37,909 bases of DNA, taken from a virus. This document shows positions 5,375 through 24,918 of the stretch, piece after piece. Below the pieces are notes generated by a model, which was not told the DNA's origin, ran no database searches, and was given only the letters and a program-made list of their open reading frames with translations. The position numbers were made by a program, and so were the translations under genes. Numbering within the stretch: position 1 is the stretch's first letter; the number at the start of each line of letters is the position of its first letter. The DNA lies in the IMG/VR virus record IMGVR_UViG_3300021364_000068, positions 1 through 37,909 of that record; one strand, 5' to 3'.

Positions 5375-5780
5375 TTTTTTCTTTATTTAAATAATCTTGT
5401 ATTGGTTCTGAGTCGTGTTTTTCCCAAGGGAAAATTAACCATTCATCCCCTTCATGTAATTTAGAATATACATTAGGAGTAAAAACTGAAGTATGTGGTT
5501 TATGAAATAATACTGCTGTATATAATCCAGGCATTTTATTCATAGTAACTCCACTATCAGTCATATCATCTACTACTAAGGTGTGTGCCCCAATAGTATC
5601 TACTAAAGGTAATCCTGTTTGATGTGATAGCATAACCGCAGGAATTAATCCACCTCTAGGTATTCCATAAATTGAGTCTGCTAATGGAACCTCAAATGGT
5701 ATTTTTCCTGCTAAATCTTTAATTAGATCTGTTATATCCCACCAACTAACTGATATTTTTTTATCATTAAATCTTAACAT
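5367..5780 (-). CDS. Phosphoribosyltransferase-family protein
   Basis: 137 residues of type I phosphoribosyltransferase fold. The PRPP-binding motif is VVDDMTDSGVTM, and the upstream YGIPRGGLIPAVMLSHQTG matches the purine phosphoribosyltransferase beta-hairpin region. The best guess is xanthine/guanine phosphoribosyltransferase-like salvage, but the C-terminal purine-recognition part is too divergent to name a substrate. It sits between folE and the MazG-like gene in a run devoted to guanine and nucleotide metabolism, so it may feed or recycle purines for the 7-deazaguanine pathway or for DNA synthesis. It overlaps the MazG-like start by 8 bases. Confidence 0.78.
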   Translation of the reverse strand: MLRFNDKKISVSWWDITDLIKDLAGKIPFEVPLADSIYGIPRGGLIPAVMLSHQTGLPLVDTIGAHTLVVDDMTDSGVTMNKMPGLYTAVLFHKPHTSVFTPNVYSKLHEGDEWLIFPWEKHDSEPIQDYLNKEKNG

Positions 5781-5783
5781 AAC

Positions 5784-6479
5784 TTAAATATTGTGTCCTC
5801 CGTTATTAATTTTTAAACTATCAAAAAATTCTTTACGAGCTTGATTTGTATCATCTCTAAAGGCACCTGATGCTTTAGTTGTAACCATTGCTGCTCCTTG
5901 ATGTTTAACACCCCTACAAGATACACAATTATGGGTACCTACAATAGTTACAATAACACCTTTATTATTTTCAGTAATTTTATCTACTGCATTATGGATA
6001 GCTGAGGTTAATTGTTCTTGAATAGCTCCTCTTCTACCAAATAATTCTACTATTCTATTTAATTTAGAAAGACCAATTACTTGACCTTCAGTTCCTGCAA
6101 TATAACCAATATGAACTACACCCCCAATTGTTTGGTGGTGATGTGAACACATTGAATTTAACGGTATATTACGTTCTATAATTACACCATCATAACCATC
6201 TGATGGGAATGATGTAATAGGAGACATCGCAGTGTATCTACCAGCCCACAAATCATTGACATAAGCTTTAGCTACTCGTCTTGGTGTTTCCATTGAATTG
6301 GGATCATTTCTCCAATCACATTTTAAAGCATCTAAAAACTTACCATAAGCTTTTTCTGCTTGATTAATCATTTTATTTTTTTCTCTATCTGTAAGTGGAA
6401 ATCCTTCAGCAACACCATTTGCAAAACCAACTTGTACAACTTCTAGTTCTTCATGAACTTTTCTACGTTTATTCTCCAT
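5784..6479 (-). CDS. folE: GTP cyclohydrolase I (FolE)
   Basis: 231 residues. FolE converts GTP to dihydroneopterin triphosphate, the first step of both folate and 7-deazaguanine (preQ0) synthesis. The zinc site is intact: C111-x2-H114 in MCSHHHQTIGG and C185 in HNCVSCRG. The GLSKLNRIVELF and RRGAIQEQLT segments are classical FolE. It is the last pathway enzyme in a run that also encodes QueE, QueD, QueC and a DpdA-like enzyme, so here it most likely feeds DNA base modification rather than folate. The first ~35 residues are an N-terminal extension without recognisable features. It is 20 bases downstream of the oxygenase gene. Confidence 0.95.
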   Translation of the reverse strand: MENKRRKVHEELEVVQVGFANGVAEGFPLTDREKNKMINQAEKAYGKFLDALKCDWRNDPNSMETPRRVAKAYVNDLWAGRYTAMSPITSFPSDGYDGVIIERNIPLNSMCSHHHQTIGGVVHIGYIAGTEGQVIGLSKLNRIVELFGRRGAIQEQLTSAIHNAVDKITENNKGVIVTIVGTHNCVSCRGVKHQGAAMVTTKASGAFRDDTNQARKEFFDSLKINNGGHNI

Positions 6480-6499
6480 TTATTTAATTTAATTTATTT

Positions 6500-7108
6500 T
6501 TATCTATAACACAACCAAGTAGTTAAAATATACTTATCATCTGAAATTGGTTTATTTCCTTTATGAATATAAGGCCAACTAGCTGGGTGGATAATTAATT
6601 TACCCGCTTCTGGTTTAACTTTGAAGAAATCATTTTCACCTTCTTCTTTAAATAAAAATTCAGTTTCTCCACCTTCTTTAACATCATTTAGGTATAAAAT
6701 AAATACTAAATATCTATGTGTGGTGTTAAAATCTTGTTTTTCTAAATGCCAACCATTAAAATGACCTTCATTCATTTTATATTTCTGCATTTGAAGTAAT
6801 GGATAATAGGTTGATCCATCTATTGTTCTTCTATGAGTATATAAATTATTGTGAGGAAAATTTTCAAACCATTCTACATTCGCTTTATTAAATGCATTGG
6901 CTACTAAATTAATATGAAAACCATTTGCATCTTGATGTTGAAGCAAATTATAATCAGTAGAAACTTTGGCTGATTCTTTTCCTCCTAAAGTATGGCCTTT
7001 ATATGTTTCATTTTTTCTATCATAATCTTCAAACAGATTAATTAAACCATCACATTCTCCTTTAGTAAGAACATTTGGTATAATTCCTATAGTATCGCTA
7101 AATTTCAT
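6500..7108 (-). CDS. 2-oxoglutarate/Fe(II) oxygenase, prolyl 4-hydroxylase type
   Basis: 202 residues. The double-stranded beta-helix signature is present: GWHLEKQDF (first metal His with an acidic partner), YLNDVKEGGETEF, and GKLIIHPASWPYIHKGN with the distal His, followed by a TTWL strand. This is the P4H/PHD superfamily of phage oxygenases; substrates range from proteins to nucleobases. The ATG lies inside the end of the upstream 45-residue gene (about 11-base overlap), so translation is probably coupled. It sits between queE and folE in the 7-deazaguanine operon, which makes a role in base or cofactor chemistry conceivable but unproven. A second, different oxygenase is at 8933-9517. Confidence 0.85.
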   Translation of the reverse strand: MKFSDTIGIIPNVLTKGECDGLINLFEDYDRKNETYKGHTLGGKESAKVSTDYNLLQHQDANGFHINLVANAFNKANVEWFENFPHNNLYTHRRTIDGSTYYPLLQMQKYKMNEGHFNGWHLEKQDFNTTHRYLVFILYLNDVKEGGETEFLFKEEGENDFFKVKPEAGKLIIHPASWPYIHKGNKPISDDKYILTTWLCYR

Positions 7109-7235
7109 TTTCTAAATATTGTTTTAATTTATCTATTAGTACTAATACTTCATCTGGCTCCATTGTAATAGCACAGCAAGTATTTATATTTTCTTCTATT
7201 TCCTCCAATATACTAAGAGCTTCTTGCTTATCCAC
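7098..7235 (-). CDS. Small hypothetical protein, 45 residues, GTG start
   Basis: This short open frame fills the otherwise empty gap between queE and the oxygenase. It starts at a GTG whose G is shared with the TAG stop of queE (TAGTG) and stops 11 bases inside the next gene. The product (VDKQEALSILEEIEENINTC..., ending YLENEI) is acidic and helical, with a Cys-Cys pair at residues 20-21. No family is recognised. Support comes from tight coupling at both ends and gene-like composition; there is no second line of evidence. Confidence 0.55.
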   Translation of the reverse strand: MDKQEALSILEEIEENINTCCAITMEPDEVLVLIDKLKQYLENEI

Positions 7236-8023
7236 TATACTTCTCTTTTATCTTCAAAAGCAATGATATGTGGTCTCCAAGTCATTCTATAACCATTATC
7301 CCTAACCCAATCAAATAATACAGGATAAGATTTATATAACGCTTCTCTTGAATCTCCAGCGGGCATAAACCATACTTTATCAGGAGATACTTCTAGTTTT
7401 TCAATACAATCCATAATTTCAGCTAATGCACCTTCATCTTTACCATCCCAAACAGGTTTGATATGAAAATCAGAATGATAAGCTATTGATTGTTTTATAG
7501 CTTCATAATTTAATCTTTTCGAATTATGTTTTTTAACCATCCTTTCATCAGTAATTCCTCCTTGAGGAGTAGCAACACCAATAACGGGAACGCTATTACT
7601 AAATTTAGGAGAAATACTAAGAAGATTGATAGGATAATCAGTAGGAAGGAAATGGCTTCCTTCAGTCTCAATAGTAATGAATATATCGTTTTCATGTGCA
7701 AAGTGGGTTAACTCATTTACTAAAGCGGGATGCATAGTAGGAGAACCTCCTGTAAGCATCATTTCCTTAATATGAGGGTTATCTTTATACTTTTGGATAA
7801 TGTCATTAAAATTATATTGGCCTTTTTCTGGGTGAATACTTGTATACCAAGAATCACACCATCCTCCTTCTCCAAAATAACATCTATGAGTACAACCAGT
7901 AGTTCTAATAACTATTGTAGGGTAACCTGCTCTGGATCCTTCACTTTGTACTGCAGTATATAATTCTACAATTGGAAGGTTTTTTTCATAGTCTTCAATT
8001 CGTTTTAATTGTTTGTGTTCCAT
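7235..8023 (-). CDS. queE: 7-carboxy-7-deazaguanine synthase (QueE), radical SAM
   Basis: 262 residues. QueE converts 6-carboxytetrahydropterin to 7-carboxy-7-deazaguanine using an Fe4S4 cluster and SAM. The N-terminal substrate/SAM region LYTAVQSEGSRAGYPTIVIR precedes a cysteine motif at C44, C48 and C56 (GCTHRCYFGEGGWCD), that is CX3CX7C rather than the usual CX3CX2C. MMLTGGSPTMHP supplies the GGEP-like SAM-binding turn, and the C-terminal KVWFMPAGDS is typical of QueE. It lies 19 bases after queD and shares one base with the following small gene. The variant cluster spacing is a genuine oddity, but known QueE enzymes also vary here. Confidence 0.9.
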   Translation of the reverse strand: MEHKQLKRIEDYEKNLPIVELYTAVQSEGSRAGYPTIVIRTTGCTHRCYFGEGGWCDSWYTSIHPEKGQYNFNDIIQKYKDNPHIKEMMLTGGSPTMHPALVNELTHFAHENDIFITIETEGSHFLPTDYPINLLSISPKFSNSVPVIGVATPQGGITDERMVKKHNSKRLNYEAIKQSIAYHSDFHIKPVWDGKDEGALAEIMDCIEKLEVSPDKVWFMPAGDSREALYKSYPVLFDWVRDNGYRMTWRPHIIAFEDKREV

Positions 8024-13568: not shown

Positions 13569-14138
13569 TTATTCTATTAAATAATCAATCCATTTTGTTC
13601 CTTTAGTATCTTCATTTGGAAAAGAAAATATATATTGTTTACCTCCAAAAGTTATTATTTTTTTAAAACTAGAAGGAATAGTAGCTCCCCCTGGTACTTT
13701 TTGATTAGAGAAATATACTTCAACTCTGACTTTTACTTCATAAAAATTAGCTAAATCTCTTTCAAATCCTTCTAATTCTTTCCAAACCCCTCTATTTAAC
13801 CCTTGATGTTGTAATGCTGAATTTAAATATGTAAATGTTTTGTATAGTGTTTCTTTATCACAATTAAATGAAGCTGCAGGTGCTAAATGACCTTTATCCC
13901 ATATATTATTTTTATAATCATCATTATCCGAGGTATGAATTTCATTATCTATATAAAAATCCATTCCTTGTCTAGAGGCATCTCCTCTAGGACATTGTAC
14001 TATATATTCAACCCATACAGGTTGTTCTTTTTCTTGATCATATTGAACAGTAAAAATGTCAGTTTCAATTAACTGACTTTGTAAAAATAAAGGAAATATA
14101 AATAATAAACTAATAAATTTTTGTTTCATCGTCTTCAT
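13569..14138 (-). CDS. Secreted NucA/NUC1-type DNA/RNA non-specific endonuclease
   Basis: 189 residues. A Sec signal peptide is clear (MKQKFISLLFIFPLFLQSQ, cleavage near residue 21), so the protein should reach the periplasm or exterior. The beta-beta-alpha-metal nuclease signature follows: NIWDKGHLAPAASF, where D-K-G-H (81-84) replaces the usual DRGH, with general-base His84, and LNRGVWKELE with metal-binding Asn115. The family cuts DNA and RNA without sequence preference. The start overlaps the upstream membrane-protein gene by 29 bases; Met4 is an alternative start. A secreted nuclease fits release of host nucleic acid at lysis or attack on extracellular DNA rather than intracellular host-chromosome breakdown. 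Confidence 0.85.
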   Translation of the reverse strand: MKTMKQKFISLLFIFPLFLQSQLIETDIFTVQYDQEKEQPVWVEYIVQCPRGDASRQGMDFYIDNEIHTSDNDDYKNNIWDKGHLAPAASFNCDKETLYKTFTYLNSALQHQGLNRGVWKELEGFERDLANFYEVKVRVEVYFSNQKVPGGATIPSSFKKIITFGGKQYIFSFPNEDTKGTKWIDYLIE

Positions 14139-15430: not shown

Positions 15431-15437
15431 CTATTTT
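15404..15437 (-). terminator. Intrinsic terminator after holin gene
   Basis: On the minus strand AAAATAGG, a 10-base loop, and CCTATTTT form an 8-bp stem (15412-15437) followed directly by more T residues. The holin stop codon TAG (15431-15433) lies in the stem, so it ends the lysis-like transcript. Confidence 0.65.
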
Positions 15438-15847
15438 CTAATCCCTTTATGCTTATCAATACGATCTAGTATATCATTTAAAACTTCTGTTTTAATAAAA
15501 CCAGCCATTGATGCATTTTTAAGGACACTTACTAATTGTAAAACTACAAGAGGCATGACCATGGTTTCACTTAACCATCCTGCCCCAGGTATACTTTTTT
15601 CTATTACTAAAACAACAGTTAACATAATAGTCCAGAAAAGAAGGGTTCTTAAAATCTTAATTGCTTTATAAGTTTTAAATCCTTCTCGTTTTATCCCAGC
15701 GATAATCCCAAAAAAACCATCTGCAAATACTAATGTAGCTATTGCTAAATATTGTTCTGCATTTTGCATGGTAAGTTCCATAAAATAGGAACATATAAAA
15801 GCTAACGACATACTTCCGCCTGATAAAATTATTTTTGTTGTTTTCAT
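15431..15847 (-). CDS. Phage holin (holin 4 superfamily-like)
   Basis: 138 residues with three or four predicted membrane segments: residues ~5-25 (IILSGGSMSLAFICSYFM), ~33-51 (YLAIATLVFADGFFGIIAG), ~66-84 (LRTLLFWTIMLTVVLVIEK) and ~95-110. The FADGFFGIIAGIKREGFKTYKAIKILR segment matches the D-x2-x-GI-A-x-K-x(n)-S pattern of the toxin-secretion/phage-lysis holins. It would permeabilise the inner membrane and release the endolysin. It is the last gene of the cassette and ends in an intrinsic terminator; the endolysin-like gene is 27 bases upstream. The assignment is by topology and motif. Confidence 0.7.
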   Translation of the reverse strand: MKTTKIILSGGSMSLAFICSYFMELTMQNAEQYLAIATLVFADGFFGIIAGIKREGFKTYKAIKILRTLLFWTIMLTVVLVIEKSIPGAGWLSETMVMPLVVLQLVSVLKNASMAGFIKTEVLNDILDRIDKHKGIRK

Positions 15848-15874: not shown

Positions 15875-16510
15875 CTATTGTTTATGTGGTTCTAAACTTT
15901 CTATATAATTAATGTCTTTACTTTCTATTAAAGTATAAGTAAATGAATTACCCCAAACATCTTTAGCACTATTACAGATTTGCATAAATTCTGTAAAGTT
16001 ATCATTTGAAGCTATTACTTGGCAACCAGCTGACCATTTATCTACTTGAACAGAAGTAGCTCCTTCCCATTTAGTTGCTCTATGGATGTTAATACCAAAT
16101 ATTCCTTCCCAAATTCTATCTGGGTTCATATCATATCTCCCATCTCTGTTGTTATCTCTAAATACTTTTAATGGTTTCTTTTGTCTTAAAGCTTCATATT
16201 TGCCTTGGTGTAAACCAATTTCATGTGAACCTCTATATTGACCAGGTACTAAGATAGCTACACCATTGGGATTTAGTAAATTTTGTTCCCAATGTAATCC
16301 TGGGTCACAGGTTGCTTTGTATTCTTTGTACATTGGTACACCATCTACCATATAACTTACGGTTAACCAATCATCAAATTTATTTGTTACTTCATGATCT
16401 GTTCCTGAGTTTCTAACCCCAACTATATTAAGGTTATAATTGCCACTTTCGAACCAGGTATAACCTAAATGTTCTACTGCAGCTTTAATTTTCCAATCTT
16501 GCCAAGCCAT
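15875..16510 (-). CDS. L,D-transpeptidase-like enzyme, candidate endolysin
   Basis: 211 residues. The C-terminal half holds INIHRATKWEGATSVQVDKW and then SAGCQVI, which follows the YkuD layout of a His followed by [ST]-x-GC at the catalytic Cys (about residue 175), although the usual HGC histidine is Ala here. YkuD-fold enzymes act on peptidoglycan peptides. The N-terminal half has no recognised fold. No signal peptide is present, so release to the periplasm would depend on the adjacent holin. Its place between the holin and small membrane proteins suggests the cell-wall-degrading component of the lysis cassette. No other endolysin candidate lies nearby. Confidence 0.52.
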   Translation of the reverse strand: MAWQDWKIKAAVEHLGYTWFESGNYNLNIVGVRNSGTDHEVTNKFDDWLTVSYMVDGVPMYKEYKATCDPGLHWEQNLLNPNGVAILVPGQYRGSHEIGLHQGKYEALRQKKPLKVFRDNNRDGRYDMNPDRIWEGIFGINIHRATKWEGATSVQVDKWSAGCQVIASNDNFTEFMQICNSAKDVWGNSFTYTLIESKDINYIESLEPHKQ

Positions 16511-16535: not shown

Positions 16536-16787
16536 TTAATCTTTTTTTCCTTCTAAGTATCCTTTTTCATACTGAAGTTCTTTTTCTATATCAACGATTC
16601 TTTCTTCTAAATCGTTAATTACTTTTATTTTTTTGTCTAACCTTTCATGTACAGTGGTTAGTTCTGATTTTAAAGCTGTAAACTCAGAAAATAAAGTTCC
16701 AGCAGTAAAAATCGCAGCCAATAATCCTACGACTATTGACCAGTTGTTTGTTAAAAACTTATTTAAATTCACCTCGTTATTTGGCAC
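16536..16787 (-). CDS. Small TM plus coiled-coil protein, spanin-like
   Basis: 83 residues. A short polar N-terminus is followed by one membrane segment at about residues 15-33 (WSIVVGLLAAIFTAGTLF) and then a continuous coiled coil (LKSELTTVHERLDKKIKVINDLEERIVDIEKEL...) to the C-terminus. This is the inner-membrane (i-spanin/Rz) topology, and the gene sits in the lysis-like cassette, but no small o-spanin lipoprotein gene is nested within or directly after it. A lipoprotein is encoded at 20104-20481. Other membrane-anchored coiled-coil roles are possible. Confidence 0.6.
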   Translation of the reverse strand: MPNNEVNLNKFLTNNWSIVVGLLAAIFTAGTLFSEFTALKSELTTVHERLDKKIKVINDLEERIVDIEKELQYEKGYLEGKKD

Positions 16788-16799
16788 TTTATCTTTAAT

Positions 16800-17054
16800 T
16801 TATTTTTTACCACCAAAGATTTTGCCTGCTTCTGCTATTCCAAAGCATCCTAAAGTAATGAATAGGAAAGAATCATAAATGAATTCTTGGATTACTAAAT
16901 CTTTACCCACAAATCCTGTAACAATATCAGCAGCAGCAAATATTACCATTACTGCAAATGAAGCAAAACCAACAACTGATTTTTCGTTGATGTCATTATC
17001 ATCTTTAAAAATATTTTTAAAAGCCATCCATTTATGTTTTAATTTTTTAAACAT
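16800..17054 (-). CDS. Small two-TM protein, holin-like
   Basis: 84 residues. The N-terminus is basic (MFKKLKHKWMAFKNIFKDD), followed by two membrane segments, about residues 27-48 (VVGFASFAVMVIFAAADIVTGF) and 57-78 (FIYDSFLFITLGCFGIAEAGKI), and a basic tail (GGKK). The size and layout suit a class II holin or antiholin, and the gene is 12 bases upstream of the spanin-like gene. It could act alongside the larger holin at 15431-15847. No family-level identity was recognised. Confidence 0.55.
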   Translation of the reverse strand: MFKKLKHKWMAFKNIFKDDNDINEKSVVGFASFAVMVIFAAADIVTGFVGKDLVIQEFIYDSFLFITLGCFGIAEAGKIFGGKK

Positions 17055-17101: not shown

Positions 17102-18787
17102 TTAAAATTGGAACTTAGAACCAATAGTTGCTGACCAAGTTATTGGAATTCCTGGAAGAGTTGTTCCTACTATATTTCCCCCTATATTAAATCGGAATCT
17201 TTGAGTAATTCCAACATCAAAATTGGATCCTACTATATAAGTTACATGCTCATTCCACACAATTTCTCCTTTTCCTGGTTTTCTTATATCAAAATTATAT
17301 GATACTGGGTTGAGAGCTAATGCTAACATTGGAGAAATTGTAACTTTTTTAGTTGGAAATGGTTTAGTTCCAAATAATACTCCAGAGGGCATTACCATTA
17401 CTGTATTATCTATATTAATTATTGTGCCTGAAATTGCGTATCCTCCAACAAATCCTTTCCAGAAATTTTCTTTTTGTCCTAAATATACATTACTTATCCC
17501 ACCAGAAAGTACTTTAGTACCATAAATGTACATAAAATTAGCACTAACTGATTGTATCATCATTATACTCCCTCTATTGTAGATAGAACCAAAATATAAA
17601 TCTTCTTTTTTTGTTAGTGGATTGTACAAATATAATTTTTCTTCTTTATCATAATTAAAATATACATTAGATTGAGATAATCCTAAACTAAATTGTTCCA
17701 TATTATCCCAAATCATAACATTAGCAGAATAAGTAGTAGTTCCATTAAGTGATGATTGAGATAAACCAAAACTAGCTGCTCTACTAAAACTTCCATCTAA
17801 AGCTTGTTGTGTTAGTAAGTTAGCAGAAACATTTATAGGATTACGTTGCTTTTTTTCTTCTTCTTTTTCCTCTTCATCTTCACTTTCTTCTTCTTTCTCC
17901 TCTTCTTCCTCTTTTTCTTCCTCCTTTTCCTCCTCTTTTTCTTCCTCTTTCTCTTCCTCTTTTTTCTCTTCTTCTTTTTCTTCTTCTACCTTTTCATCAC
18001 TTTCTTCATCACTGCTTTCTTCACTGCTTTCATCCTTATTTTCTTCACTTGATGAATCTTCACTGCTTTCTTCTCCTTCACCACCTGAATCTCCTCCTTC
18101 TTCTCCTGACGAATTATCATCGCCGCCATCTCCATCCCCAGAAGAGTTATCATTATCTGATGAACCACTATCATTATCCGAGGAATTACCCCCAGACGTA
18201 TCGTCACTCCCAGAATTCCCGCTATCGCCAGAATTATCTCCTCCTGAGTTTCCTCCTGAGTCACTACCTGAAGAACTGCCTGAGTCCCCTCCTGAATTAT
18301 TTGATGAGCTTGAGCTTCCACTTGAGTTACTTCCAGAGGAACCTGAATTACTACTGTTTGATCCTGTATTTGTTGATCCTGTGTTTCCATTAGTATTAGT
18401 ATTAGTTGTGCCCGTATTATTAGTAGCGCTAGATGTAGCATTACTTGCAGCATTAGTTGCATTGCTAGTAGCATTACTAGTAGTCTGTTGTGTAGATTGA
18501 TTATTTGCTGTATTAGTTGAGCATGGGCTTAGGTTTGACCACCAGGCATAAGTTTCGTTGAGCCATGCTTCTAATGTACCATTAGTATATTCAGCCCAAG
18601 TAAATGTTTTTACCCTATTATAAAAAGCTACTGTGGCTGAGCCATTAACAAAATTTGCGGTTACTGTTTTTACTTCATTAGTACAACGATCTGTAAAATA
18701 TTGAGTAACAGATTGGGTTTGTCCTACCGTAGTAAAACAAACAAAGAAAAATAATATAAAATAAAGTTTTCGCACATTAATGATCAA
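17102..18787 (-). CDS. Exported protein: acidic low-complexity tether and putative outer-membrane barrel
   Basis: 561 residues. A signal peptide (LYFILFFFVCFTTVGQTQ) leads into a small domain with two Cys (DRCTNEVKTVTANFVNGSATV... to LSPC, about 25-90). Residues ~92-320 are low complexity in three zones: Thr/Asn/Ala/Ser, then Ser/Gly/Asn/Asp, then Glu/Lys with runs of EEEKEEEK. The C-terminal ~240 residues alternate hydrophobic and polar strands and end GSKFQF, the terminal Phe expected of an outer-membrane barrel. No family recognised. It overlaps the CsgG-like gene by 11 bases, so the two are translated together. It may display or anchor something at the outer membrane. Confidence 0.75.
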   Translation of the reverse strand: MIINVRKLYFILFFFVCFTTVGQTQSVTQYFTDRCTNEVKTVTANFVNGSATVAFYNRVKTFTWAEYTNGTLEAWLNETYAWWSNLSPCSTNTANNQSTQQTTSNATSNATNAASNATSSATNNTGTTNTNTNGNTGSTNTGSNSSNSGSSGSNSSGSSSSSNNSGGDSGSSSGSDSGGNSGGDNSGDSGNSGSDDTSGGNSSDNDSGSSDNDNSSGDGDGGDDNSSGEEGGDSGGEGEESSEDSSSEENKDESSEESSDEESDEKVEEEKEEEKKEEEKEEEKEEEKEEEKEEEEEKEEESEDEEEKEEEKKQRNPINVSANLLTQQALDGSFSRAASFGLSQSSLNGTTTYSANVMIWDNMEQFSLGLSQSNVYFNYDKEEKLYLYNPLTKKEDLYFGSIYNRGSIMMIQSVSANFMYIYGTKVLSGGISNVYLGQKENFWKGFVGGYAISGTIINIDNTVMVMPSGVLFGTKPFPTKKVTISPMLALALNPVSYNFDIRKPGKGEIVWNEHVTYIVGSNFDVGITQRFRFNIGGNIVGTTLPGIPITWSATIGSKFQF

Positions 18788-19487
18788 AGATCTTTTTACG
18801 TATCATCCTTTTAACTACTTTAGCAACTCCAGTTTCTAGAGCTTTTTTAGTTGAAGTACCGATAGATGATTGATTAAACTTAATTTCTTCTAAATTTTCA
18901 TCATTAAGTAAAGTCATTTCTCTTGTAGTTGTAGCTTTACCTAATCCTGATCCTGTCATATAAAGTCCTGTTTCTGCATCTACCATTTTAACTTGGAGAC
19001 CTAATCTTGTAACTAAGTTACTTTTTACTCCATCTTTTAAACTAATAGATTCATCTTCAGAGATAGAAAAATCATATACTTCTATATAACAAAAGTATTT
19101 AGCGAGCATAATTTTGCCCTTAATATTAATTTGGTTAGCTGTAAACCCTTTTTGAGATGCTTTATATTGAGTAACCATTCTATCTTTGATTTCGTCTTTT
19201 GTTTCAACGAATTCAAATCTAAATGTTTCATCTAAGAATGCTACTGTTATATTAGTTAATCCTAAACCTACTCTATAGTCTCCTAATTCTGGATATTGTG
19301 ATAATATTTCATCACTTACACCTATATTAAGTAGTGCTACTGTTACAGGATCGCCATTATATTCAGGTATTGACCAAATTGACTCTCTAGATTCAAACCC
19401 AGCAGTATAATCTTCTGTGGTTGTTTTACCTAGTACTTGACCAAATGCTACATTTAGCCCAAGTAAAAATACGATAAGGTATTTCAC
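18777..19487 (-). CDS. CsgG-like curli secretion pore family protein
   Basis: 236 residues with signal peptide MKYLIVFLLGLNVAFGQ. The CsgG-family core is recognisable: GLGLTNITVAFLDETFRFEFVE (the N-terminal strand-helix with the DETxRF motif), YFCYIEVYDFSI, RLGLQVKMVDAETGLYMTGSGLGKA and the C-terminal amphipathic helix KKALETGVAKVVKRMI. CsgG forms an outer-membrane pore that exports curli subunits. Unlike E. coli CsgG there is no lipobox Cys. No CsgA/CsgB-like repeat protein or CsgE/CsgF is seen beside it; instead the neighbouring genes encode an exported barrel-like protein and a cohesin-type protein. CsgG homologues in marine phages have been noted, from memory. Confidence 0.72.
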   Translation of the reverse strand: MKYLIVFLLGLNVAFGQVLGKTTTEDYTAGFESRESIWSIPEYNGDPVTVALLNIGVSDEILSQYPELGDYRVGLGLTNITVAFLDETFRFEFVETKDEIKDRMVTQYKASQKGFTANQINIKGKIMLAKYFCYIEVYDFSISEDESISLKDGVKSNLVTRLGLQVKMVDAETGLYMTGSGLGKATTTREMTLLNDENLEEIKFNQSSIGTSTKKALETGVAKVVKRMIRKKIFDH

Positions 19488-19489
19488 TT

Positions 19490-19747
19490 TTAGATATAGT
19501 CAAATACACCGAAAGTAGCATTTTCGAATGTGGATGGATCAGCAATAAAATTTATCACTAATGTAAACCACCCTACCCAAAATAGTAATATTAAGCTTGT
19601 TAGCCAAAACCATAAAACAAAATCTATTGGATTTTTAGATTTCATTGCGGTTTGCCATAACTCAACTATGGGATAAGAAAAATACAAGATAGCTTGGATT
19701 AGCCAAGTTTTCTTCGTACGTTGTAATAAATAATTCATGGTTGTCAT
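19490..19747 (-). CDS. Small two-TM protein
   Basis: 85 residues. Two membrane segments are evident: about 15-35 (WLIQAILYFSYPIVELWQTA) and 42-67 (FVLWFWLTSLILLFWVGWFTLV). It is rich in Trp and has a short polar C-terminus (FGVFDYI). No family recognised. It is the first gene after the bidirectional terminator hairpin at 19795-19818 and is followed by the CsgG-like gene 2 bases later, so it may belong to the same export module. A role in inner-membrane coupling is only a guess. Confidence 0.65.
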   Translation of the reverse strand: MTTMNYLLQRTKKTWLIQAILYFSYPIVELWQTAMKSKNPIDFVLWFWLTSLILLFWVGWFTLVINFIADPSTFENATFGVFDYI

Positions 19748-19794
19748 TTTAATTGTTATACTTCACTCTATTTTAATTTGACAGCAGAATAGAG

Positions 19795-19818
19795 AAAACC
19801 AGGTTGCCGCCTGGTTTT
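19795..19818 (-). terminator. Intrinsic terminator, usable on both strands
   Basis: AAAACCAGG, a 6-base loop and CCTGGTTTT form a perfect 9-bp hairpin flanked by A and T tracts, 6 bases after the stop of the 91-residue gene. On the minus strand the loop region reads GGCGGCAAC, resembling the hairpin at 22802-22831. The following gene starts 48 bases downstream. Confidence 0.75.
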
Positions 19819-19824
19819 CCATTT

Positions 19825-20100
19825 CTACCAGTCATACTCTTCTTTTCTTTCTTCTGTTTTTGTTTTTTCTTGTTTTGGTGGAAGAACTATAGTCTTAGAT
19901 ACTACAACAGTATCTTTAATTGATTCAGGAACAACAATTGTTTGTTCCATTGATGGTTGAATTTGATCTTCTGCTACTCCAAATATAGATTCCATATTAG
20001 TTATTACTAATCCACCTGCGGCTGTAATAATAAGACCAATTGTTGTAATTACTTGGTTTTTTATTTGACTAAAAAATCCTCCTTGTTTATCTTCACTCAT
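19825..20100 (-). CDS. Small membrane-anchored protein, 91 residues
   Basis: Residues 1-15 are polar, one membrane segment spans about 17-37 (VITTIGLIITAAGGLVITNM), and the C-terminal half is charged and extended (VVPESIKDTVVVSKTIVLPPKQEKTKTEERKEEY). There is no signal-peptide cleavage site, so the C-terminus would face the periplasm from an inner-membrane anchor. No family recognised. It is 3 bases downstream of the lipoprotein gene and is followed directly by an intrinsic terminator, making it the last gene of the cohesin/lipoprotein transcript. Confidence 0.65.
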   Translation of the reverse strand: MSEDKQGGFFSQIKNQVITTIGLIITAAGGLVITNMESIFGVAEDQIQPSMEQTIVVPESIKDTVVVSKTIVLPPKQEKTKTEERKEEYDW

Positions 20101-20103
20101 AAT

Positions 20104-20481
20104 CTAAAATTTTGAAAAAACTGTTATACCTATTACTGTATGGTCTTCTTTAGCTAGTTCTAATTTATAAGAACTTTTTTCTAAAGTATTTACATACACC
20201 TTTAATATATTATCACCTTCTTTACCATTAAGCCTTTCTTGAGATATTAATTCATTAGTCATACTATGTCTAATTTTTACTCTATAAACTCCATCTGAAG
20301 GTAATTTAACATTCATAGCTACTCTTTCTGATACGATAGCACTAGCTAATTTAACTCCTACCAAGTCTTCAATAAATAAAGCTTCTGGTACTTCTTGATT
20401 TTCATCTACCACAAGAAAATCTTCATCTTGTGCACATCCTAATACTAAAAATAATACTAATATTGATAATAATTTTTTCAT
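20104..20481 (-). CDS. Lipoprotein, 125 residues
   Basis: A lipoprotein signal peptide with lipobox LVLG-C at Cys16 (MKKLLSILVLFLVLGCAQDED) is followed by an acidic spacer (AQDEDFLVVDEN), the arrangement that in Bacteroidota favours export to the outer face of the outer membrane (LES-like S/A-D/E-rich signal; known from that phylum, inferred here). The mature protein is strand-rich (VYRVKIRHSM, DNILKVYVNTLEKSSYKLEL). No family recognised. It lies between the cohesin/dockerin gene (2-base gap) and the 91-residue membrane protein gene. It could act as an o-spanin-like or surface-exposed component. Confidence 0.75.
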   Translation of the reverse strand: MKKLLSILVLFLVLGCAQDEDFLVVDENQEVPEALFIEDLVGVKLASAIVSERVAMNVKLPSDGVYRVKIRHSMTNELISQERLNGKEGDNILKVYVNTLEKSSYKLELAKEDHTVIGITVFSKF

Positions 20482-20483
20482 TT

Positions 20484-22187
20484 TTATTGAATTATAAATT
20501 TAACTTTTTGACCATCAGCTTTAATTCCTTCTGTTAATTTAAAAGTAATTAATCCTGATGTGTTTTGTAATGTTTCATTTGGAGTGAATATTAATTTATA
20601 AGCATTTCCTGTTTTAATTGATACTTCTCCTGATTGATCTAAAGATCCTATATTTACTTTTGCTTGTTGTTCTTTATGATTTGCAAAATTAGTCATTGTA
20701 TTTCCTGTATCAAAAATTACATTATCTAATTCTAAAATAGTTTCATCATAATTTATATTAAATTGAGCACCTACTACTCCTTCTTCTTGTAAATTAATAG
20801 TAAAGTGTACTTTACCATCTACTAATTCAGAAACAACATCTAAATTAGATTCAATTTCATCTTGTAAAGCCATTGAAGTAACACTCATTCTTGCTTGAGA
20901 AGATTGAGCTGTACCTGTTTGAGCATAAGCACTTCCTTCTGCTGTTGGGACATATCCATGAGAAAAATCAACATCACCTATTAAAGAATGACCAAAACTA
21001 AATGCTTTATCTGCATCAGTAGGTTCTATGATGAATTTTTGTCCGAAATAATAATCATCAGTTGATACACCTAATTGTTCTATTCTACCCCAAACATTTT
21101 TAGATCCGTTAGTTGAATTAGTAAACCATTCACTTAATCCTTCTACACCTTGAACATGGCCTAAAGCTTGATAAGCATCTTCGGGTGTTATATTTCCTGA
21201 ATTATTTAATTCACCTAGCAAGTACTGAATAGCATAATCAAATGTATTTTGGTTACTTGTGTCTCCAGGTCCTCCTGCTCCAGTAGCATTACCTTGTTTA
21301 AAAATTATAAAGGCATCTGCTATTGTTAATATATCATCTAACCAAGAAGCTTGATCATTTACTTTAATTTCAAAGTAATATTTTTCATCTACAATTAAAT
21401 TACTAGTAATTACTTGCCCATTTGCATCAAAATTACCTGTTTCAATTGCATCTCCTGTTTTACCATTAACTCCATCAGCAGCATAAATTGCGTAAGTAAA
21501 ATCAGTAGCGTGATCAGCTTTAGCAGCTGAATTTAATGTTATAGTAACACTACCAGCATTTACCCCACTTACACTAGCTAATGAAATATTTTCTGTACCA
21601 GCATTTACATCTAATAATCCTGAGCTAGCACTTATATCTTCAAAATTAGCATAGTTAAGATCAGTAACGTTATTATAATTAGAATACCCTGTACCTTGTC
21701 TATCTTTAATTTTAAATTTAACATAGATCCAAGCAGTTGATAAAGGTAAATCTGAAGCTGATTGTATAATTACTCTACCTACGGACCAATCTGATACTGT
21801 AGAATAAGATCCTGCTCCAGCATTTAACCATCCTTGTTCATATTGAACATCTAAATCTGATTCAGCTATAGCTACACCAGCATAAGTGTTAATAGGATTA
21901 AACCTATACCCATTCCACATTGTCCAAGAATTTTGAGCATCTGAAGGTAAACCACTTGTTGGGTTAAATTCATGTGAAACATATTCTAATAATTTATTAT
22001 TCCATTCAAAGTCAAAATGAACACGATCAGGTGTCATTCCACTTCCATCTACTCCCTCAAATTTTACAGTAATAGTATCACCGACTACAAATCCATTTGT
22101 ATCTGCATCAATGTAACTGTGGCTTAAATATCCTTGTTGGGAAAAAGCCATAAAAGGTAACATTAATAAAAATAGTAGTTTTTTCAT
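20484..22187 (-). CDS. Exported cohesin/dockerin-type protein
   Basis: 567 residues with a signal peptide (MKKLLFLLMLPFMAFSQQ). Residues ~20-210 resemble a cohesin or carbohydrate-binding beta-sandwich (GDTITVKFEGVDG..., HFDFEWNNKLLEYVSHEF). A central region around 285-345 looks like a dockerin with two helix-loop repeats (ILTIADAFIIFKQ; GELNNSGNITPEDAYQALGHV). The C-terminal ~110 residues form a second cohesin-like domain (VHFTINLQEEGVVGAQFNINY..., ILELDNVIF). Cohesin and dockerin bind each other and build surface complexes. The ATG overlaps the stop of the 34-residue gene upstream. No PorSS C-terminal domain is evident. Confidence 0.7.
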   Translation of the reverse strand: MKKLLFLLMLPFMAFSQQGYLSHSYIDADTNGFVVGDTITVKFEGVDGSGMTPDRVHFDFEWNNKLLEYVSHEFNPTSGLPSDAQNSWTMWNGYRFNPINTYAGVAIAESDLDVQYEQGWLNAGAGSYSTVSDWSVGRVIIQSASDLPLSTAWIYVKFKIKDRQGTGYSNYNNVTDLNYANFEDISASSGLLDVNAGTENISLASVSGVNAGSVTITLNSAAKADHATDFTYAIYAADGVNGKTGDAIETGNFDANGQVITSNLIVDEKYYFEIKVNDQASWLDDILTIADAFIIFKQGNATGAGGPGDTSNQNTFDYAIQYLLGELNNSGNITPEDAYQALGHVQGVEGLSEWFTNSTNGSKNVWGRIEQLGVSTDDYYFGQKFIIEPTDADKAFSFGHSLIGDVDFSHGYVPTAEGSAYAQTGTAQSSQARMSVTSMALQDEIESNLDVVSELVDGKVHFTINLQEEGVVGAQFNINYDETILELDNVIFDTGNTMTNFANHKEQQAKVNIGSLDQSGEVSIKTGNAYKLIFTPNETLQNTSGLITFKLTEGIKADGQKVKFIIQ

Positions 22188-22288
22188 TTTTTGTTTTTCA
22201 TGTGTTTTGTTAATGAAGGGTACATTTCATATCCAATTTTTGTAAGCCATTCATCAACTTTAATTAATAATTGTTTTATTTTTTTCAT
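22184..22288 (-). CDS. Small basic protein, 34 residues
   Basis: This frame fills the gap between the second CsgG-like gene and the cohesin-type gene. Its ATG (22288) overlaps the TGA of the gene before it, and its TGA overlaps the ATG of the gene after it, ATGA at both ends. The product is basic and helical (MKKIKQLLIKVDEWLTKIGY..., ending HMKNKK). It may be a real small protein or a translational relay that keeps the downstream gene coupled. No family recognised. Confidence 0.55.
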   Translation of the reverse strand: MKKIKQLLIKVDEWLTKIGYEMYPSLTKHMKNKK

Positions 22289-22764
22289 AATTTTAATTTG
22301 TCAATAAGTTGTTCGCATACTTTTTTAAGTGCACTAGACACCCCTGCTTGTGAAAACTTACCTCCATCATCTATAATTAAAGTAGATGTAGAAATTGATT
22401 TTGAAGTTCCTTTAGCAGTTACTTCTTTGATTATTTCACCATCTACAAGTAACCTAGCACCTGCAATTATTTGAGTAATATCAGCTTTACGGCCATATAC
22501 TCCTAATTGCATGCTATTTTTCTTTACATCAAAATATAGTAATTCGACTCTGATACTTTTTGGTGCTTTATCACTCAGGTAGTAATCTTTATCTTGAATT
22601 ACTTCTTCTAATATATTTTTTACACCAAAAGCCAAGTCACGGTTACCCGCAAAAGGGCCCATAACAATGTTATTGGTAACTTTTTCTATGTGTATAGTCT
22701 CTTGACTATAACCATTAATGCCCAGTATTAGAGCAAAAATGAAACATAATGATTTCATATTCAA
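22285..22764 (-). CDS. Exported CsgG/YajG-like protein
   Basis: 159 residues with signal peptide MNMKSLCFIFALILGINGYSQ. The mature part has the alternation of strands and helices seen in the periplasmic core of CsgG and YajG proteins: a helix FGVKNILEEVIQD, strands IRVELLYFDVKK and QLGVYGRKAD, IIAGARLLVDGEIIKEVTA, and a terminal helix GVSSALKKVCEQLIDKL. It is too short to include the CsgG transmembrane barrel strands. It may work with the larger CsgG-like protein at 18777-19487. It heads the cohesin/lipoprotein transcript after a 140-base regulatory gap. Confidence 0.6.
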   Translation of the reverse strand: MNMKSLCFIFALILGINGYSQETIHIEKVTNNIVMGPFAGNRDLAFGVKNILEEVIQDKDYYLSDKAPKSIRVELLYFDVKKNSMQLGVYGRKADITQIIAGARLLVDGEIIKEVTAKGTSKSISTSTLIIDDGGKFSQAGVSSALKKVCEQLIDKLKL

Positions 22765-22839: not shown

Positions 22840-22867
22840 ATTATACATATAAAAAAAGGGGGTCAAA
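22840..22867 (-). promoter_or_regulatory. Possible promoter TTTG-N18-TATAAT before the exported-protein operon
   Basis: On the minus strand TTTG (22864-22867) lies in the terminator stem and is followed after 18 bases by TATAAT (22840-22845). Spacing is one or two bases shorter than in P1-P5, so this is a weaker call. It would serve the CsgG/YajG-like gene. Confidence 0.35.
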
Positions 22868-22876
22868 TTGACCCCC
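22851..22876 (-). terminator. Intrinsic terminator after the 76-residue membrane protein gene
   Basis: On the minus strand GGGGGTCA, a short AAT-type loop, and TGACCCCC form an 8-bp GC-rich stem followed by seven T residues. It is the strongest terminator in the window and ends the replication/nrd transcript, 28 bases after the last stop codon. Confidence 0.88.
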
Positions 22877-22903
22877 TATCATTGTTATTTTACTTTATTC
22901 GCA

Positions 22904-23202: not shown

Positions 23203-24918
23203 CTATCCGTCGCAAGACACACAATCTGCCATTCTTGAACCAAGATCACCCTTGATGACACTGTCAGTTCTTAGGTAATATAATGTTTTTATCCCAAGCT
23301 TCCACGCCTCTAAATGCACTTGATTTATCCATTTTGGCGAATCATTGGGATCAAATGACAAATTCAGAGATTGAGTTTGGTCAATATATTGTTGTCTTAT
23401 TGCAGCTTGGCGCACTAATTCTAACTGATTAATTTCAGGGAAAGTTAGAAATAATTCTTTTTCATCAGGAGTCAATACATTATCTGGTAAATCCATTACA
23501 GAACCCCCATCAGCTAACATTTGATCCCACCATTTATCTTTATCTTCTCCTTTTTCAATTAAAATTGATTGTAATACTTTATTTTTTCTAATAAAAGTAC
23601 CCTTAGCACCATTAAAAGTATAGATATTAGCTGGTAAAGGTTCAATACCTGCTGAAATTCCTCCTGTAATTACTGAATTAGAAACTGTAGGAGCAATTGC
23701 TAATAAGTGAGTATTTCTCATACCTGTTCCTCTACACCATAAAGGTTCTCCATATTCTACAGCTAAATCTCTAGATGCTTTTTCTGCTTTAGATCTAATA
23801 TCTGAAAATATATTATGAGTATGAGCAGTTGAAGCAATTGAATTAAATGGTAATTTCTTTTGTTGTAAAAATGTGTGCCAGCCCATTACTCCTAAACCTA
23901 AAGCTCTACCTTTAGAAGCATGTTTATGGGTTCTTTTTAATGAATCTCTACCACTAGATTTATCAATAAATTCTTGCATTACACCATCTAAAAACCACGT
24001 AGCTAATTCTACAGTATCAGTATCTTTCCACTCGTCATATTTAGCTAAATTTAAAGATGATAAACAACAAATAAATGAATGTTCTTCATCTGTAAATAAT
24101 GTAATTTCCGAACAAATATTAGTCATTGTTACATCTAAATTATGTAATCTATAAGCAATAGGATTATCTTTATTAACATTATCTTTATACATCACATAAG
24201 GTTCACCTGTTTCCATTCTAGATTTTAGAATAGTAGCCCAAGTGTTCATAGCATCAGGATCTCTAGTTTCTAATTTACGCATAAAAACATCATCTACAAC
24301 TACACATTGATGTAAATTTAAACATTGTCTATTAGGATCTCCTTTAGGTCTTCTAATTTGTAAAAATTCATATATATCTGGATGGTTAATATCTAAGTTT
24401 ACAGATGCAGCACCTCTTCTAACATTACCTTGATTAGTAGCAATAATTGCTGAATCGTAAATTTTACACCATGGAACAACACCTTCTGATTTTCCATTAC
24501 CTGTAATACCTTTTCCACGTGGTCTAATACGAGATACACTAATACCTACACCTCCACCAGATGCTGTTAATTTCATTAGTTCTGCGTTAGTTAAACCGAT
24601 TCCACGTATAGAATCAGGTGTATCAATACCAAAGCATGAAATTGGTAAACCACGATCTGTTCCCATATTTGATAAAACAGGTGATGCTAAACCAACCCAA
24701 CCATTCCAAAATAATTTGAAAAATTTATTGGCTAATTCTGGTTTTTTTAATCTCATAGCTGCTGCATTTGCAACTCTTCTATAAGCGGTTTTAACTGTTT
24801 CTCCAGGTAATAAGTATCCTTTAGATACTGTTGCTAAAGAAATTTCATCCATCCACTCAGGATATTGTTTTCCTGGTTCCCAATTTGTATAATCTACTTG
24901 TAATGCGTTATTTTCCAT
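23203..24918 (-). CDS. nrdA: Ribonucleotide reductase class I large subunit (NrdA)
   Basis: 571 residues. NrdA reduces ribonucleoside diphosphates to deoxy forms together with NrdB. The active-site residues are in place: Cys95 (ISCFG), the N267-x-C269-x-E271 radical/substrate triad (TNICSEI), the partner Cys284/285 (ICCLSSLNL) and C-terminal shuttle cysteines (DCVSCDG). At 571 residues it is much shorter than E. coli NrdA (761) because the N-terminal ATP-cone is missing, so dATP overall-activity feedback is probably absent, as suits a phage. nrdB lies 3 bases upstream. Confidence 0.97.
   Translation of the reverse strand: MENNALQVDYTNWEPGKQYPEWMDEISLATVSKGYLLPGETVKTAYRRVANAAAMRLKKPELANKFFKLFWNGWVGLASPVLSNMGTDRGLPISCFGIDTPDSIRGIGLTNAELMKLTASGGGVGISVSRIRPRGKGITGNGKSEGVVPWCKIYDSAIIATNQGNVRRGAASVNLDINHPDIYEFLQIRRPKGDPNRQCLNLHQCVVVDDVFMRKLETRDPDAMNTWATILKSRMETGEPYVMYKDNVNKDNPIAYRLHNLDVTMTNICSEITLFTDEEHSFICCLSSLNLAKYDEWKDTDTVELATWFLDGVMQEFIDKSSGRDSLKRTHKHASKGRALGLGVMGWHTFLQQKKLPFNSIASTAHTHNIFSDIRSKAEKASRDLAVEYGEPLWCRGTGMRNTHLLAIAPTVSNSVITGGISAGIEPLPANIYTFNGAKGTFIRKNKVLQSILIEKGEDKDKWWDQMLADGGSVMDLPDNVLTPDEKELFLTFPEINQLELVRQAAIRQQYIDQTQSLNLSFDPNDSPKWINQVHLEAWKLGIKTLYYLRTDSVIKGDLGSRMADCVSCDG

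Follow-up and report, generated by a model that had tools for sequence, protein, structure and literature searches.

Gene content and order of the envelope module

IMG/VR virus record IMGVR_UViG_3300021364_000068 (37,909 bases; the whole stretch analysed, hereafter the window) carried T4-like replication and baseplate genes, every one on the minus strand. Between nrdA (23203–24918) on one side and lysis genes on the other lay a block, likewise entirely on the minus strand, which a preliminary description had called an envelope export module with two CsgG-like proteins, a cohesin/dockerin protein, a lipoprotein and a barrel. Its position was confirmed; PHROGs and Pfam identified the Rz-like, endolysin and holin genes. 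From the nrdA side, the block comprised CsgG1 (22285–22764, probable start ATG at 22758), assigned to the YajG/CsgG superfamily; the cohesin protein COH (20484–22187); the lipoprotein LIPO (20104–20481); sm19825 (19825–20100), with one transmembrane segment and a Pro/Lys/Glu-rich tail; sm19490 (19490–19747), a small protein with two transmembrane segments, recognized by its open reading frame and partial synteny as a variable member of the block; CsgG2 (18777–19487); and BARREL (17102–18787, probable start GTG at 18775). Five proteins carried export signals, as described before: signal peptides were read from the sequences of CsgG1, COH, CsgG2 and BARREL, and a lipobox from that of LIPO. COH/LIPO, LIPO/sm19825 and sm19490/CsgG2 were separated by 2–3 bases, CsgG2 and BARREL as called overlapped by 11 bases, and larger gaps preceded COH (97 bases) and sm19490 (77 bases). 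An intrinsic terminator (22857–22877, minus strand; 9-bp stem with 6 G-C, T run) divided nrdA and sm22904 from the block. Of the terminators previously ascribed to the block, this strong upstream one stood; nothing comparable was seen past the block end.

A synteny survey, which had been proposed as a check, gave the order CsgG1-COH-(LIPO)-sm19825-CsgG2-BARREL in approximately 100 examined IMG/VR loci and in the cultured Flavobacterium phage immuto. Since the order recurs in this many loci, the block is not a chance arrangement but real and conserved. The order was kept even where COH identity fell to about 20%, with few exceptions (rearranged in L143, L144 and L022). The block was also intact where nrdAB lay on the opposite strand (L010–L013, L015 and L041) or the lysis genes lay elsewhere. 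Many of the contigs compared were fragments. Scans with CsgG1 and CsgG2 queries matched dozens of viral contigs, and a scan with a more diverse alignment found CsgG2 relatives encoded on at least 586.

Megablast against known phages gave no match, whereas tblastn gave immuto. The only annotated phages with the module in the tblastn search were Immutovirus isolates on Flavobacterium sp. LMO8, and the viral contigs encoding CsgG2 are likely those of Bacteroidota phages. In immuto, gp13 is a C-type lectin, gp14 and gp15 are cohesin proteins, gp16 is a small membrane protein, gp17 corresponds to CsgG2 (49% identity), gp18 to BARREL, and gp19 is CsgG1-like.

The module was absent from a 164-kb relative (G539) with an 89% identical nrdA. 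CsgG2 was found nowhere in that record. The remaining module genes were missing from the module's place, where sm16800, a different exported protein, an endolysin and a holin were encoded. Because this relative keeps its own lysis genes without CsgG2 or the module, the module is accessory and lysis does not need it. Among 17 surveyed UvsX-bearing contigs, most of them fragments, two encoded CsgG2. At the module's place in a close relative, a 400-aa exported protein without a PHROG match was encoded (L291, 10420–11622), possibly an alternative surface protein.

These comparisons bear on a lysis role, in which a CsgG ring and the barrel would make the outer membrane permeable at a late stage of infection. 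In the window, the block adjoins Rz-like (16536–16787, phrog_739, E 4.6e-6), endolysin (15875–16510, phrog_33083, E 7.8e-17) and holin (15431–15847, PF05105, E 3.8e-6) genes, all on the minus strand (E-values of small local searches, here and below, are relative only), and a lysis role has been suggested for the CsgG of phage Melnitz (PMC9004378). Besides the relative that keeps holin and endolysin without the module, the block lay away from the lysis genes in L010–L016 and L041, and surface anchoring of COH, considered next, would serve no lysis purpose. Opening of the outer membrane at lysis, one of the roles offered in the preliminary description, was thereby weakened and appears rather improbable.

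The cohesin protein and its probable routes to the surface

COH contained a cohesin domain above the Pfam cut-off (PF00963, 2.1e-5), and cohesin was found in 21 of 31 relatives. The protein was read as a cohesin-like N-terminal part, a dockerin-like part and a C-terminal cohesin. Matches to cohesin and dockerin structures in the PDB were near 0.003, and the dockerin-like part was weak (Doc8, profile E 0.0034). The cohesin half of the earlier cohesin/dockerin assignment is thus well founded and the dockerin half tentative. In one COH relative (L022, 7651–9528), the N-terminal part contained a PA14/GLEYA carbohydrate-binding domain.

Immuto gp15 ended in a type-A sorting domain (C-terminal domain, CTD) of the type IX secretion system (T9SS; TIGR04183, 9.3e-12), as did other COH relatives (PF18962, 6.9e-10 and 1.9e-11). 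The COH of the window had no C-terminal T9SS sorting domain. Among the 93 loci holding both COH and sm19825, COH carried the CTD in 13, where sm19825 started 4–14 bases later and LIPO was missing. In the other 80, COH lacked the CTD and was followed by a gap with a lipoprotein gene, typically of 110–130 aa (L143 and L144, both rearranged, had a larger gap); this split does not represent 93 independent events, because some of the CTD loci belong to a single clade. The corrected split was 14 CTD to 79 LIPO loci, since the script had taken immuto gp14, whereas gp15 carries the CTD. Never did a locus have both, and never neither.

Alignment of the CTD profile with LIPO (hhalign, 6.9e-6, probability 84.5) indicated a shared domain; TIGR04183 was matched below threshold by 14 of 34 LIPO sequences and PF18962 by one (9e-4). 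Judged by these profiles, the LIPO domain is related to the T9SS sorting domain and appears to substitute for COH's own. Evolutionary distances of COH and LIPO covaried (rho 0.89, or 0.91 after allowing for nrdA), whereas those of the neighbours CsgG1 and COH did not (0.05). These were Mantel tests with 48 and 28 loci, in which phylogeny was corrected through nrdA alone. Covariation by itself is not proof of contact, because adjacent genes can recombine together; more weight falls on the swap and on the domain that the two have in common.

In Bacteroidota, surface lipoproteins are exported with the signal C-X-K-(D/E)2-X (PMC5080379). LIPO of the window has the acidic C-A-Q-D-E-D, which resembles this signal; within the window's lineage, 12 of 51 LIPO N termini had the strict signal and 22 of 51 the pattern C-X-[KRQ]-(D/E)2. 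The CTD and LIPO routes would thus both lead the cohesin to the cell surface. A phage-encoded T9SS cargo was already known from Cryophage (PMC7468147) and resembles immuto gp15 and its counterparts in 13 other loci in carrying a sorting domain. Unlike the Cryophage cargo, the one described here is a cohesin protein that belongs to a fixed module and is replaceable by COH plus a lipoprotein. A second lipoprotein of approximately 160–225 aa, starting C-x-N-P-S-x-E-R-G, was encoded between COH and sm19825 in L086, L088, L091, L096, L109, L113, L114 and L121.

A displayed cohesin might also serve adhesion: cohesin, dockerin and lectin parts would stick infected cells together or to particles, so that more hosts are near at the burst ('sibling capture'). 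This would suit the combination of cohesin and a weak dockerin-like part in COH, the C-type lectin in immuto gp13 (3e-15) and the PA14 domain in one COH, and adhesion was earlier proposed for pelagiphage curli (PMC7029224). However, cohesin–dockerin pairing is here a candidate from sequence, and Melnitz, a phage with CsgG and CsgF, gave no clumping (PMC9004378). Adhesion is a possible but unlikely purpose, ranking after shielding of the surface, the most likely one, and before lysis, the third.

CsgG-fold proteins, the barrel and a bacterial counterpart

CsgG2, the most conserved gene of the block, encoded a protein with a signal peptide and no lipobox. Direct sequence searches gave nothing useful in Pfam, PHROGs or the PDB, and neither the window protein nor 24 relatives matched PF03783 directly. 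A match to CD3337_EF1877 (NCBIfam) was ignored at 22.7 bits against a cut-off of 120. The top match of the AlphaFold2 (AF2) model (predicted local distance difference test score, pLDDT, 75.5) was CsgG (Foldseek 5.5e-7; VIA Z 11.7, root-mean-square deviation 4.1 over 158 aligned residues), followed by PelC (VIA Z 10.2), LptE and FlgT. A bacterial homologue from KSB1, 35% identical, cleared the PF03783 cut-off. The modelled fold together with this homologue places CsgG2 in the CsgG superfamily, and the structure search, which had been named as a possible refutation, gave the CsgG fold and not another one.

At the cleavage site, Q17 was invariant in all 25 aligned phage copies (alignment A2), leaving no cysteine for lipidation, whereas bacterial homologues retained the cysteine. 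The long first hairpin (131–170) carried a conserved S-E-D-E, in which E144 and E146 were invariant; where the second hairpin would lie, the model had a pLDDT below 50. For these reasons, a membrane pore built by CsgG2 alone is doubtful. No profile match to CsgA/B repeats, CsgE or CsgF was found in the window and no repeats were seen in any block protein, in agreement with the preliminary description. With the lipobox lost, the hairpin glutamates invariant and no curli partner, curli-like export was not supported. Of the earlier reading as an envelope export module, the envelope module that combines a CsgG-fold protein with a barrel and a cohesin protein is supported, whereas secretion in the curli manner is not.

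The second protein described as CsgG-like, the 159-aa CsgG1 of the window, appears closer to YajG. Direct searches of Pfam, PHROGs and the PDB gave nothing useful for CsgG1 itself, whereas 30 of its 33 relatives matched PF03923 (YajG; best 4.3e-6); CsgG1 lacked a lipobox.

The barrel was borne out: a 12-strand outer-membrane barrel ending in Phe was predicted for aa 319–561 of BARREL (AF2 pLDDT 90.5). Its best matches were the NalP translocator (VIA Z 21.5), KdgM and FapF (Z 19.8); in Foldseek, FapF ranked near the top by query TM-score (0.60–0.61). Behind the signal peptide lay a conserved domain with two cysteines (aa 24–92) and a stalk (aa 93–318), composed of a Ser/Asn/Gly/Thr/Asp part with a net charge of −16 and a Glu/Lys segment with a net charge of −37. 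Stalk length was highly variable among relatives (alignment A8). An eIF3 match was a low-complexity artefact. Signal peptide, N-terminal domain and 12-strand C-terminal barrel are the layout of a type V autotransporter, which the model thus assigns to BARREL. NalP and FapF share this layout including the stalk, at a sequence identity to BARREL of about 10%. By analogy with autotransporters, the N-terminal domain is probably displayed outside. CsgG2 and BARREL distances covaried with rho 0.60 (0.50 given nrdA).

CsgG2, CsgG1 and BARREL might instead form a FapF- or PelBC-like channel that exports COH or the N-terminal domain of BARREL. The resemblance of the barrel to FapF and autotransporter translocators fits such a machine, as does the export of fibre subunits by CsgG-type proteins. 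However, COH with a CTD should take the host T9SS, yet those phages retain CsgG2 and BARREL, and the lipobox is lost from CsgG2. We regard an export machine as unlikely.

A CsgG-fold ring protein beside an outer-membrane barrel is also found in the exopolysaccharide exporter PelB–PelC. In that exporter, unlike in the present module, the ring protein PelC is a lipoprotein, and PelB combines a barrel of 16 strands with tetratricopeptide repeats; no Pel genes were present here. Phage clusters with CsgG, CsgF and curli were already known from pelagiphages and Melnitz (PMC7029224, PMC9004378, PMC9599517). These curli (type VIII secretion) clusters (HTVC008M gp14–gp18) likewise place a phage-borne CsgG-fold protein in an envelope cluster, but contain CsgF, curlin-repeat proteins and FecR (PMC9599517), none of which the present module has; here, CsgG2 lacks a lipobox and a barrel and cohesin protein are present instead. 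Alignment A7 against the HTVC008M CsgG covered 9 residues only (hhalign). In HTVC008M, gp16 and gp18 (L208, 8871–9557 and 10638–11963) contained curlin-like N..Q.G..N repeats, which agrees with PMC9599517 and contradicts an earlier statement that these phages have no fibre subunits.

A first scan of genomes gave no relative; a second, with a more diverse alignment, did. The order CsgG2-like lipoprotein, barrel and CsgG1-like protein recurred in a KSB1 contig (L166) and four Fibrobacterota genomes, and in a fifth genome (L167) the CsgG1-like gene lay beside CsgG2 at the contig end. The CsgG1 family matched the second CsgG-like protein of these triads (hhalign, 6.3e-10). Because sequence similarity of the triad barrels to BARREL was weak, the case for the barrel part of the triad is made chiefly by the order of the genes and by layout. 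A close relative occurred in one of 296 Bacteroidota genomes, on a short contig with phage-type gene order (L164). These loci suggest that bacterial genomes encode a CsgG-barrel-CsgG system not yet characterised. More tentatively, phages and Fibrobacterota/KSB1 chromosomes might share an undescribed envelope machine in which two CsgG-fold proteins are combined with an autotransporter-like barrel, and with which phages coat the infected cell in a surface-anchored, possibly self-linking cohesin/dockerin layer; the odds are against this wider reading. In L167 (Chitinispirillum, 5518–7932), a FecR-like and other exported proteins, read by eye, precede the CsgG pair; FecR is present in pelagiphage curli clusters too.

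Proposed surface complex and accessory genes

Gene content and order, predicted folds, the CTD/LIPO swap and the absence of the module from a relative were shown above; topology, complex formation and purpose of the module are inferred as follows. In some relatives, the sorting domain of COH itself would take the protein to the cell surface via the host T9SS, and in the window's lineage it would probably be surface-bound by pairing with LIPO. BARREL would sit in the outer membrane with the two-cysteine domain on its long stalk, probably outward. Below BARREL, CsgG2 and CsgG1 would probably make up a ring or adaptor in the periplasm, for which PelC under PelB is a precedent (PMC12141448), and not a separate curli pore. 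The single-pass sm19825 with its terminal Trp may link the complex to the inner membrane. We therefore favour, with a probability of about 0.5, an accessory operon of the phage whose products assemble into an outer-membrane and surface complex on infected cells of Bacteroidota, the most likely benefit being a shielded or remodelled surface that keeps other phages from the same cell. Among the roles offered in the preliminary description, surface change or blocking of superinfection remains the best.

Several observations weigh against this proposal, in addition to the shared ancestry of part of the CTD loci. The surface-export motif occurred in none of 14 LIPO sequences of another clade. CsgG1–BARREL covariation dropped from rho 0.60 to 0.15 when nrdA was allowed for, and was for that reason set aside as contact evidence. 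The two-cysteine domain was absent from some bacterial triad barrels, and the N-terminal domain of BARREL may be periplasmic as in FapF. Superinfection exclusion as the purpose is drawn by analogy.

Alternatively, the proteins could decorate the virion. Ig-like and lectin domains are found on some phage particles, and immuto gp13 has a lectin. Against it stand the signal peptides, the lipobox, the sorting domain for the T9SS and the membrane barrel, and the module genes sit outside the structural region; a virion role was rejected on the export signals and is very improbable.

In the usual picture, a phage alters the surface of its host through one small protein. The present module seems to go further, a fixed set of several genes putting an entire complex on the surface by way of the host T9SS or surface-lipoprotein route. 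No report of the module, the CTD/LIPO swap, the CsgG-barrel core or the bacterial counterpart was found in open-access literature text, consistent with the earlier impression that the combination is new. Because a cultured carrier exists (immuto on Flavobacterium LMO8), surface display, superinfection and adhesion are directly testable.

Among the small membrane proteins, sm19825 had an almost invariant C-terminal D-W with invariant W91 (alignment A5), and its immuto counterpart, in the same place, ended in ESW. Pairing of a basic sm19825 tail with the acidic stalk was considered and dropped because the tail has a net charge of −4. The small membrane protein sm16800 (16800–17054, minus strand) was, by synteny, often encoded directly before CsgG2 in other phages. 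The window also encoded an exported DNA/RNA nuclease (13569–14138, minus strand; PF01223, 5.7e-24), which could attack the DNA of superinfecting phages and would then fit an exclusion role. An exported nuclease was located inside or beside the module in L024–L031, L134, L136, L140, L141, L156 and immuto (gp12), and upstream of it in L131.

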